The notes beneath the pieces were generated by a model, which was not told where the DNA came from, made no database searches, and was given only the letters and a program-made list of their open reading frames with translations. The translations under genes were made by a program, and so were the position numbers. DNA of 64,000 nucleotides, taken from Candidatus Edwardsbacteria bacterium RifOxyA12_full_54_48 (GTDB lineage: Bacteria > Edwardsbacteria > AC1 > EtOH8). Location: assembly GCA_001777915.1 (NCBI GenBank), contig MFFN01000004.1:62001-126000 (forward strand). Reading direction: 5' to 3'. Position 1 is the stretch's first letter. Each line of letters begins with the position of its first letter. This document shows, in pieces, positions 44,416 to 47,013 of the stretch.

Positions 44416-45054
44416 ATGAGCAGTTACAAAGTGTTAGTGGCCGATGACGAGCCGAATATCGTTAAGATCATGGAGTTCGAGCTCAAGAAGAGCGGCTACC
44501 AGGTGACTACCGCCTTTGACGGACAGGAAGCCCTGGAGCTCATTAAAAACAATCCTCCGGATCTGATCCTGTCGGACATCATGATGCCCAATATGGACGG
44601 CTACGAGCTGTGCCGCGAGGTCAAAAAGGACCCCAACTTGCGGGGCATCCCGTTCATTTTCCTGACCGCCAAGACCGGCTTGGAGAACCGCATTCAGGGC
44701 TACGTGTTGGGCGCCACCAAGTACATAACCAAGCCCTGCGCCCGGCAGGAACTGCTGAAGACCATAGACATGCGCCTGCGGCTGGCCGAGGAGGCCAAGA
44801 AGCTTTTTGAGCAGAAGGCCAGGACCTTCCAGGGAGACCTCTCCATCATCTCGGTGTTCAGCCTGATTGACATGTTCTCCATCGGAGGATGGAGCGGATC
44901 TATAGAGATGACCAGCCCGGACGGCAAGAAAGGCCGGATAGACATAACCGATGCCATGCTCACCAAATACACTTTGGAGGGGCAGTCCGGTGATGAGATA
45001 TTGCCCCTGTTGCTGTCCTGGACCCAGGGAAAATTTACCGCCGAGAGATTTTAA
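44416..45054 (+). CDS. Response regulator: REC receiver plus DUF4388 output domain
   Basis: 212 residues. Receiver with acidic pocket DDE (about 10-12), phospho-acceptor Asp in LILSDIMMPNMDG (about 55), Thr in IFLTAKTG and Lys in YITKP. After an alpha-helical linker (LRLAEEAKKLFEQKA) comes a DUF4388 (PATAN-like) domain: FQGDLSIISVFSLIDMFSIG, GSIEMTSPDGKKGRIDITDAM. DUF4388 is common in deltaproteobacterial and cyanobacterial signalling and binds protein partners rather than DNA. No kinase gene adjoins; the one at 59222 has its own partner regulator. Promoter spacing predicts a leaderless mRNA. Confidence 0.92.
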   Translation: MSSYKVLVADDEPNIVKIMEFELKKSGYQVTTAFDGQEALELIKNNPPDLILSDIMMPNMDGYELCREVKKDPNLRGIPFIFLTAKTGLENRIQGYVLGATKYITKPCARQELLKTIDMRLRLAEEAKKLFEQKARTFQGDLSIISVFSLIDMFSIGGWSGSIEMTSPDGKKGRIDITDAMLTKYTLEGQSGDEILPLLLSWTQGKFTAERF

Positions 45055-45078: not shown

Positions 45079-45198
45079 ATATTAAGTAGGCACCGGTTCA
45101 TTTCAGCCCCAAGACCACCGAAATATATACCCATGTGTCGAAGCAAAGCCTTGGCAAAATAATCAGCCCGTTACAGACTGAAAATAAAGAAAAAATGA

Positions 45199-45227
45199 TT
45201 GACTTGCACTTTTTCAAAAGCTATAAT
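45199..45227 (+). promoter_or_regulatory. Promoter reading into the cassette-like region
   Basis: TTGACT (45199-45204), 17 bp, TATAAT (45222-45227). The next ATG gene start is over 170 bases away, so the leader would cross the attC-like site at 45244-45327. An 8-bp dyad AGGTGCGT (45233-45240) / ACGCACCT (45266-45273) at the expected 5' end could fold. Apart from these sites, 45079-45399 shows no gene. Confidence 0.68.
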
Positions 45228-45243
45228 TGACTAGGTGCGTTAA

Positions 45244-45327
45244 GCTAACCACTGGTTGGGGGTATACGCACCTTCTAAAGGCATCCAAAACCAAAAATAC
45301 ACGCACTTTGCAAAGCCAATAGTTAGC
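45244..45327 (+). mobile_element. attC-like site, upstream side of cassette (weaker)
   Basis: Terminal GCTAAC (45244-45249) and GTTAGC (45322-45327) are perfectly complementary. After 3-base spacers, TGGTT and AGCCA can pair with one wobble. This gives the R''-L''/L'-R' arrangement of integron attC sites, 84 bases long. The internal pairing is short, so support is moderate. Confidence 0.45.
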
Positions 45328-45399
45328 GGTGATTATAAAAAAGCCAAGAATACTTTATGGAATTTAATAGACAAATGCATCCTTTAAATGGAAAACAAA

Positions 45400-45741
45400 A
45401 TGAAAAAACTAACAGTTGCAATATTGTTTCTTGTGTGCTTCACATTGACTGGATGTTCACAAAAAGAAACAACAGAAAAAGAAATTAATACAGTAAACAA
45501 AACTGTGCAAGACACAATTAGTGTGGGATGGCCTAATGATATTAACGGACTAATCGACCATTTAAACACTTGGTATAAAGATGAGTTAGACGCTTATGAA
45601 CGTCCTAATGCTTATCCCAATCTTGCAACTAGCGGTGAAACCAATGGATGGGTTGAGGAGCATAAAAGGATGCTCAAAGAATTAGGAGCAAACGTTTTTT
45701 GGAATAAAGAAAAGAAGCGATACGAATTAGTGAAGAAATAA
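45400..45741 (+). CDS. AT-rich lipoprotein on a putative integron cassette
   Basis: 113 residues from ATG 45400 (GGA 7-10 bp upstream); an ATG four codons earlier at 45388 is possible. Lipoprotein signal (MKKLTVAILFLVCFTLTGC), a charged spacer, then SVGWPNDINGLIDHLNTWYKDELDAYERPNAYPNLAT and an end like LGANVFWNKEKKRYELVKK. No family recognised. Base composition and codon use are far more AT-rich than the genes on either side. The stop lies 5 bases before an attC-like site, the classic layout of a gene cassette. Confidence 0.7.
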   Translation: MKKLTVAILFLVCFTLTGCSQKETTEKEINTVNKTVQDTISVGWPNDINGLIDHLNTWYKDELDAYERPNAYPNLATSGETNGWVEEHKRMLKELGANVFWNKEKKRYELVKK

Positions 45742-45746
45742 CTACC

Positions 45747-45876
45747 GCTAACACGGCATCAGAAAAAACGCTGGTGCATTGCGTATTTATACAAAATCAC
45801 TGTCTTTAAACTTCATTAATGGCGGATAATGAAACGCGGCAAAAACCCGTGCTATTTCTATGCCAAACACGTTAGC
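45747..45876 (+). mobile_element. attC-like recombination site, downstream side of cassette
   Basis: GCTAAC (45747-45752) pairs with GTTAGC (45871-45876). Inside, GGCAT-C-AGAAA (45755-45765) pairs with TTTCT-ATGCC (45855-45864), leaving one unpaired C. Such an extrahelical base in an otherwise paired L''/L' stem is a hallmark of attC sites. Total length 130 bases, in the long-attC range. No integrase gene is in the window. Confidence 0.6.
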
Positions 45877-45943
45877 AGCCATTAACGGGAATATGCGTTT
45901 TATAGCCAACCCAAATAAATAACACCGCCACCATTTTCTATCT

Positions 45944-46029
45944 GGATTCCCAATCAAGTCGGGAATGACAATATAGCCGTAATGCGCCTATGGAGAGGAA
46001 TGATCCGCCTACGCTAAAGCTGCGGCGGA
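45944..46029. repeat. Two further interspersed inverted repeats
   Basis: GGATTCCCAATC...GTCGGGAATGAC (45944-45969, ATTCCC family) and TCCGCC-TACGCTAAAGCTGC-GGCGGA (46004-46029). The 220-bp stretch after the attC-like site shows no gene. Confidence 0.65.
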
Positions 46030-46085: not shown

Positions 46086-46109
46086 AAGCCCCCGCCTAAG
46101 CGGGGGCTT
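46086..46109 (-). terminator. Hairpin AAGCCCCCGC / GCGGGGGCTT, fourth copy
   Basis: Same stem as at 4920, 5615 and 5908. It overlaps the last codons and stop of the radical SAM gene on the minus strand, so termination would be immediate. Confidence 0.65.
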
Positions 46110-47013
46110 TCTCGTATTCCGGCATTCTGGCCGTGAATTTTCTCACCATCTGCCCGCAGTTGCTGCCGATGAAATTTTCCTCCATGTTGCCCACCGATTC
46201 TATCACCTCATATCCCAATTTTACAAACTCACCGGCTTTTCCTTTCACCATTCCGTGAGCCTCATTTGATTCCTCAAGGCATTGCAGTTTGTTGCTGTTG
46301 GCCGTGGCCGTGGGATTAAGCGGCGTAAGCTTAATGGCAAATATTTCCGGATCGAAATAATTGGTTATCCGATCTGCTTCCACCGGGATCCCCGGCGATA
46401 GGGCGAAATTTAAGGACGGCTTGCGGCTGCCGGGACGGTAAAACCTTCTTCCGAAAGCGGCCATTTGCGGCCAGCTCATTTTGGGATAGGGTATCAGTTT
46501 ATCCCGCATTTCCAAGTCGGTGGTGTTCATGGAGAACTGCAGTTGCATATCAGAGAACCTCTGCGAGACATTCAATAATGATTCGAACCACTTATCCCGG
46601 CCGGCCGGAGCCATGGTGGCAATGCAAGGCATGGCAGCAGGATGGTTATCGGCCAGCCAATGGATGACGTCTATCACCGCATCGTTTAAAGCCGGTTCGC
46701 CCATCCGGGCAAACTGTATTTTCAGTTTTTGGCACCTTTGGGGATCCAGATCCCGGTTCTCCGATAACACGTGCTCTATCTGGCTTCTGATCTCGGGCAG
46801 CGATAGATTTCCCATGAAATCGCCCCCGGCATCGCACATCAGGCATCCCACCGGACAGCCGAACTGGCTGGAGACCACTATCACCCATTTTTTGTCCCGT
46901 CCCACGGCCGCCGGTTCGCACGAATCAACGAACTCGAGCATCCGACCGTTTTCCGACTCGGCCAAATAGACCACCGCCAGGTCCTTTCTTCCGTTCCTCC
47001 CCAGTATCTTCAT
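46096..47013 (-). CDS. RlmN/Cfr-like radical SAM protein lacking the N-terminal domain
   Basis: 305 residues. Radical SAM cluster CPVGCLMC (C-x3-C-x2-C, about 53-60) in the context VVSSQFGCPVGCLMCDAGG, typical of RlmN/Cfr methyl synthases (SSQxGCxxxCxFC). ARMGEPALN matches their GMGEPLLN motif, and the C-terminal NCGQM matches the catalytic-Cys ACGQL motif. It lacks the about 90-residue N-terminal RNA-binding domain of RlmN, so the substrate may not be 23S rRNA. GGAAGG precedes ATG 47013. The start overlaps the flavoprotein stop (ATGA), so the two are coupled. Confidence 0.85.
   Translation of the reverse strand: MKILGRNGRKDLAVVYLAESENGRMLEFVDSCEPAAVGRDKKWVIVVSSQFGCPVGCLMCDAGGDFMGNLSLPEIRSQIEHVLSENRDLDPQRCQKLKIQFARMGEPALNDAVIDVIHWLADNHPAAMPCIATMAPAGRDKWFESLLNVSQRFSDMQLQFSMNTTDLEMRDKLIPYPKMSWPQMAAFGRRFYRPGSRKPSLNFALSPGIPVEADRITNYFDPEIFAIKLTPLNPTATANSNKLQCLEESNEAHGMVKGKAGEFVKLGYEVIESVGNMEENFIGSNCGQMVRKFTARMPEYEKAPA

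Follow-up and report, generated by a model that had tools for sequence, protein, structure and literature searches.

The window, i.e. the whole stretch of 64,000 nucleotides that was analyzed, contains a short AT-rich segment between a response-regulator-like gene and a radical-SAM-like gene. GC content of this segment is ~36%, compared to 50-60% in the surroundings. The following features were assigned to the locus:

44416-45054, plus strand: response-regulator-like gene, left flank; 85-89% DNA homology in the congeners G001, G002 and G003
45104-45196, plus strand: remnant of a patchless tyrosine recombinase, with its last ~24 conserved residues (SPKTTEIYTHVSKQSLGKIISPL) followed by a 2-bp frameshift
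45199-45227, plus strand: Pc-like promoter TTGACT-17-TATAAT, 11/12 consensus positions, kept in G003
45228-45327, plus strand: putative attI-like platform site, 81% identity to the attI region of G003, common core, no hairpin beyond that of shuffles
45323-45871, plus strand: predicted gene cassette, from TTAGCGGT to G^TTAGC, with 9-nt self-complementary ends and boundary-exact differences to congeners
45388-45741, plus strand: cassette gene encoding a lipoprotein with lipobox LTGC, 117 aa (113 aa if the start is at 45400)
45744-45879, plus strand: attC-like site, R'' ACCGCTAAC at 45744-45752 and R' GTTAGC at 45871-45876, 42.6 bits with covariance model R1
45879-45970, no strand assigned: conserved right flank, in which homology with the three congeners resumes
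46096-47013, minus strand: radical-SAM-like gene, right neighbour, 72-77% identity in G001, G002 and G003

The AT-rich lipoprotein gene named in a preliminary description of this DNA was present, as were the GCTAAC/GTTAGC ends, which were located at 45244/45322 and 45747/45871. Homologues of the lipoprotein were searched for in plasmids, phages, viral contigs, relatives and 396 Bacteroidota genomes, and none was convincing; two marginal matches (E 2e-4 and 6e-4) were obtained. The start of the predicted cassette (GTTAGCGGT, from 45322) is a perfect 9-nt reverse complement of its end (ACCGCTAAC, ending at 45752), and the same closure was observed in the congener G001 (10/10) and in G005 (9/9). 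Bare GCTAAC...GTTAGC ends taken alone are weak evidence, and as a chance control two other NNTAAC...GTTANN pairs with similar spacing were found within the window.

To score the site downstream of the gene, a covariance model (R1) built from 42 sites of other species was used, with the window and its congeners left out. Over the 64-kb window R1 gave a single match at 45744-45879 (E 8.3e-9), bearing out the 130-base attC-like site that had been proposed before. No second site was detected genome-wide among the limited number of candidates scored in the genome search. The R''-R' spacing of 118 nt equals the modal value of the family described below. In folding predictions the bottom strand was more stable than the top strand (-18.5 vs -14.7 kcal/mol), with a modest folding z-score of -1.6 for this site on its own. 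Rfam yielded no match anywhere in the window; to our knowledge, no Rfam family for attC exists.

The preliminary description had further regarded an 84-base site upstream as a second attC and had suggested an attC covariance search over the contig and genome. That search supported the 130-bp site and gave no match to the 84-bp site. On neither strand did the latter fold better than dinucleotide shuffles (z +0.8 and +1.2), and its 5' GCTAAC reads GCCGAC in the congener G003. A second attC at 45244-45327 was rejected on these three grounds. In five relatives, which share the core (C/A)CA(C/A)TAGTTA, the site adjoins the 3' end of an intact or remnant integrase gene; it is therefore designated a putative attI-like site, and crossover would be expected between 45322 and 45323. 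The promoter reading into it was found as described, although consensus matches of this kind are expected by chance.

The integrase remnant at 45104-45196 had been missed earlier. Frame 45057 reads ...SPKTTEIYTHVSKQSLGKIISPL, corresponding to the C-terminus of a tyrosine recombinase including the catalytic tyrosine. The original stop codon would be TGA near 45195, which is out of frame owing to a 2-bp deletion shortly before it. Among named families, the integron integrase TIGR02249 fits the remnant best (E 5.7e-4, 23 residues aligned), and 80% identity was obtained to an intact enzyme of G003, with DNA homology starting at 45104. At the matching locus of G003, the intact integrase gene (L051:226-1428, 401 aa) is flanked by the response-regulator gene on one side and by the promoter and attI on the other, all corresponding to those of the window. 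Compared to G003, the window has lost all of the integrase but its last ~24 conserved residues. The earlier view of an integrase-less cluster holds insofar as no working integrase is present now, but not by origin, since a remnant lies directly upstream and the gene is intact in G003. Canonical IntI was not found in the genome of the window.

A comparison of strains for presence or absence of the segment, also suggested in the preliminary description, showed that the borders of the differences among congeners coincide with the predicted crossovers. Left homology with G003 extends to 45335, just beyond the attI R' box, and right homology with G001, G002 and G003 restarts at 45879-45882, just beyond the attC R' box. 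Between these platform flanks, each congener carries a different gene or cassette. In G002 (1.2-Mb contig) the last ~8 integrase codons (SPLDDLT*) are all that is kept of the gene, and they are followed by attI, a gene resembling purC and an attC that has collapsed, while G001 harbors a short integrase remnant and a duplicated platform. The array of G003 ends with a 333-aa gene that has its own attC. In G006 the platform is absent at the equivalent locus and one orphan attC lies elsewhere. In the stretches examined, neither the orphan cassette of G006 nor that of G004 had a recognizable start partner. Taken together, the platform of the window's genome appears to be dead, with the lipoprotein cassette frozen in place, and the segment is best read as the last, mobile cassette left in a decayed integron-like platform. 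The proposed gene cassette and its 130-bp attC-like site are supported by the independent covariance model, the closure of the cassette ends and the congener comparison.

Several further observations were made in these genomes. The purC-like gene (SAICAR synthase) of G002 (L181, G002:C5:1131500-1137000) has a metabolic function and has become fixed in a platform that is dead. A 42-residue fragment of a radical-SAM gene lies between the two platform copies of G001 (L048, G001:C26:2100-4420), and a similar fragment was found in G003:C56. The orphan attC-like site of G006 (L183, G006:C3:247233-247364; 47.5 bits) is accompanied by a 287-aa AT-rich gene at an unrelated locus and may represent an off-platform insertion; an integrase of the patchless family was not found in the G006 genome. 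A canonical full-length IntI is encoded at G003:C70:26420-27361 (L030:12421-13398), in the same genome as the intact patchless integrase, and a frameshifted canonical intI was found on C29 of the family member G009.

To place the recombinase, the intact integrase and its relatives were compared with IntI and the Xer proteins. The IntI patch of ~40 residues was present in 0/76 family members, and in the alignment with IntI the patch region is missing. The KGxKxR-HxLRHSFAT spacing amounts to 64 in the family (range 64-71, n=76), as compared to 106 for 13 IntI and 71 for 17 XerC/D proteins. With TIGR02249 the family integrase scored 236 against a cut-off of 265, and the match was split. The XerC and XerD profiles remained below their curated cut-offs (TIGR02224, 189 vs 335 bits; TIGR02225, 188 vs 330), while the cut-off of NF040815 (XerA, named 'site-specific tyrosine recombinase/integron integrase'; 220 bits) was passed with 233, 261 and 226 bits. 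In a tree that also included IntI, XerC/D and two archaeal XerA, the family (98/97) and IntI (100/99) are sisters (98/91; 99% of bootstraps), with XerA outside this pair and XerC/D separate. A larger tree without XerA also separates XerC/D and places IntI beside or inside the family, so that strict sisterhood depends on sampling. The nearest solved structure is the integron integrase 2A3V, both by sequence (6.6e-42) and by fold (rank 1). On sequence grounds, the recombinase of the remnant is thus assigned not to IntI but to a patchless sister family.

Intact members carry at least one N-terminal repeat (F-Y-...-LV..IK.LPG..W.K...W.IP) with a confidently predicted fold (pLDDT 90); L050 is a family member without it. 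PF07443 (HARP) matched 6/14 members (best E 1.8e-5). The N-terminal domain weakly resembles HARP of SMARCAL1 and the N-terminus of XPB; the similarity to 4o66 was E 0.003 by profile, and Foldseek gave a probability of 0.82 but E 0.06. HARP of SMARCAL1 and the XPB N-terminus are DNA-structure-recognition domains.

When 84,980 species genomes were scanned for the integrase, more than 515 relatives were obtained, from which 80 loci were kept. These are mostly from Bacteroidetes, and also from Neomarinimicrobiota, Delongbacteria, Nitrospirae, Spirochaetes and others. Within 2.5 kb of the integrase, the contig breaks off on the downstream side in 49/73 loci and on the upstream side in 10/80, an excess that is expected if assemblies break in the array. 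In L061, L084, L076 and others, small same-strand genes form chains of cassettes, and the two ends of every cassette complement each other. The R''-R' distance is most often 117-118 nt; the 116-119 bin contains 39 GTT, vs 12 in the reversed control. Applied to both strands of the 80 loci (966 kb), R1 gave 80 matches at E <= 0.01, 38 of which lie outside the training set. In 77/80 cases, 35 of them not used for training, the match lies on the downstream side of the integrase and shares its strand, a family-wide link between integrase and attC-like sites. No R1 match was obtained in the short IntI-type loci L010-L029.

Sites had been found via cassette closure and spacing and then passed through an arm-pairing filter. 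Covariation over 42 aligned sites was 0.537; shuffled sites reached 0.154 +/- 0.014 (0/500), and sites with slid partners no more than 0.137. The value of 0.537 is somewhat inflated because the 44 structure sites were partly selected by arm pairing; later model matches are unaffected. In the 42 aligned sites 80.7% of stem cells were paired vs 55.2%. The bottom strand was more stable in 39/44 sites, with a mean difference of -2.6 kcal/mol (Wilcoxon p 7e-8). In 11/12 carriers, 7 to 66 attC sites per genome were counted. Furthermore, 396 genomes were evenly drawn from the phylum of the carrier L061; since L061 belongs to the Cyclobacteriaceae, this phylum is Bacteroidota. At least one site at E <= 1e-5 was present in 190 of them. 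The attI-like sites often harbor a dif-like inverted repeat.

Two observations concern individual loci of the family. In the Cytophagales-type loci L080, L084, L092, L094 and L106, a gene for a single-stranded-DNA-binding protein (MRGLNKVTLIGNLGK...) directly follows the integrase stop codon, a neighborhood that is suggestive of recombination of folded single strands. In L070 (Adonisia turfae) an integrase and an attI-like inverted repeat are present, whereas an attC-like site was not found in the genome.

These data lead us to propose, with high confidence, that the window harbors a decayed chromosomal integron-like platform whose recombinase belonged to a patchless family that is sister to IntI and usually bears HARP-like domains. 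The ancestral enzyme would have recombined circular gene cassettes at G^TTAGC, with the folded bottom strand of the ~130-bp attC as one partner and the attI-like site beside the integrase gene as the other. By exchange of one strand at the G^TT step of the R' box, on the folded attC as well as at attI, a junction would form that is resolved by replication, as in integrons (PMC4792948). That the patchless enzyme may perform recombination between single-stranded attC and double-stranded attI is proposed by this analogy, and the HARP-like domain may help to recognize the folded site. Expression of the incoming first cassette would be driven by the Pc-like promoter. Subsequent decay in the window's genome would have removed most of the integrase and shifted the frame of the rest, leaving one lipoprotein cassette frozen behind the promoter, from which the lipoprotein is presumably expressed.

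The lack of the IntI patch and the score above the XerA cut-off would also fit a recombinase that acts on double strands in an Xer- or phage-like manner. The elements would then be IMEX-like and the 130-bp stem a regulatory or terminator hairpin rather than a substrate, and the dif-like inverted repeat often seen in attI-like sites points in the same direction. We regard this as unlikely, given that 39/44 sites share the folding strand bias and that their arms covary around conserved unpaired positions. In addition, the cassette ends are self-complementary. All three features are hallmarks of folded attC, and within an array R' and R'' come from different cassettes.

A canonical integron as the source, with an ordinary IntI, lost or located elsewhere, that inserted the cassette and an Xer-like remnant as coincidental neighbor, appears even less probable. 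IntI enzymes tolerate diverse attC sites, which is compatible with such a CALIN, and canonical intI genes occur in the congener G003 (C70) and in the family member G009 (C29). However, the remnant carries the C-terminus of the patchless family, attC lies directly downstream and on the same strand across 80 loci of this family, IntI-type loci L010-L029 lack R1 matches, and attI and promoter are common to the patchless integrase locus of G003. Canonical IntI was rejected as the main reading also because the window's genome has none and because TIGR02249 stayed below its cut-off. It is also possible that the cognate integrase is a separate one that acts in trans. The probability that chance repeats flank a horizontally acquired orphan gene without any recombination system is negligible: bare 6-nt ends do arise by chance and the lipoprotein is an orphan, but the match to an independent model (E 8e-9), the 9-nt closure, the remnant with its syntenic intact integrase and the congener differences at exact boundaries argue against it. 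A decayed platform of the patchless family is therefore the reading that we follow.

If the family recombines attC-like hairpins without the patch, the IntI patch would not have been the innovation behind cassette recombination. Escudero et al. (PMC4792948) proposed that an ancestral recombinase became able to act on folded single strands by gaining an I2-like domain. A patchless sister family that is associated with attC-like cassettes renders this proposal, and with it the origin of integrons, directly testable. Current practice relies on two profiles to recognize IntI, one of which was built on the IntI-specific domain (PMC9668308; PMC9024848). As integron searches require this extra domain, platforms of the patchless family are not counted as complete integrons: the system appears integron-like by anatomy, yet falls outside the defining IntI test. 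For Bacteroidetes only In0 were known earlier and since then one complete integron, in Salinibacter (PMC9024848; Chlorobi and Ignavibacteriae apart), as compared to attC-like sites in 190/396 sampled genomes. It is probable that integrons of a second, widespread kind exist, mainly in Bacteroidota but also in several other phyla, with a patchless IntI sister and perhaps HARP-like recognition of folded DNA. In a literature search that covered few subscription journals and no bioRxiv preprints, no published description of a patchless or HARP-bearing integron integrase with cassettes was found, and the patchless system is likely to be novel. Within one genus, the series from an intact gene via ~24 residues to shorter remnants of down to ~8 illustrates how a platform dies and freezes its cassettes.

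With integrons and sedentary chromosomal integrons, the family shares an integrase gene beside an attI-like site, a Pc-like promoter that would read into the cassettes, and one-gene cassettes in one orientation, with relatives differing at exact att boundaries. The R''/L''/L'/R' layout of attC, GTT...AAC boxes, unpaired bases and the more stable bottom strand are likewise common to both, and IntI is the closest sister of the family's recombinase. Differences are the missing IntI patch (I2 domain region), mostly combined with N-terminal HARP-like domains, the nearly constant attC length of ~130 bp, and an integrase gene that is co-oriented with the cassettes in the loci examined. intI genes are usually divergent from their cassettes, with known exceptions. 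Co-orientation is shared with inverted-integrase integrons (e.g. Treponema), which we take to encode an IntI with patch, unlike the family. The core fold and the passed NF040815 cut-off connect the family to XerA, XerC and XerD; judged by its context, however, it is not a chromosome-dimer resolvase, as attI-like sites and attC-like arrays adjoin, and it has an extra N-terminal domain and is nearer to IntI than to XerA or XerC/D. Like a CALIN, the window now has attC without a working integrase, although the default in IntegronFinder 2.0 is two attC (PMC9024848) and the window has one. It differs from a CALIN in that the cognate integrase, which is not IntI, can be identified from the remnant and the intact orthologue at the same locus.
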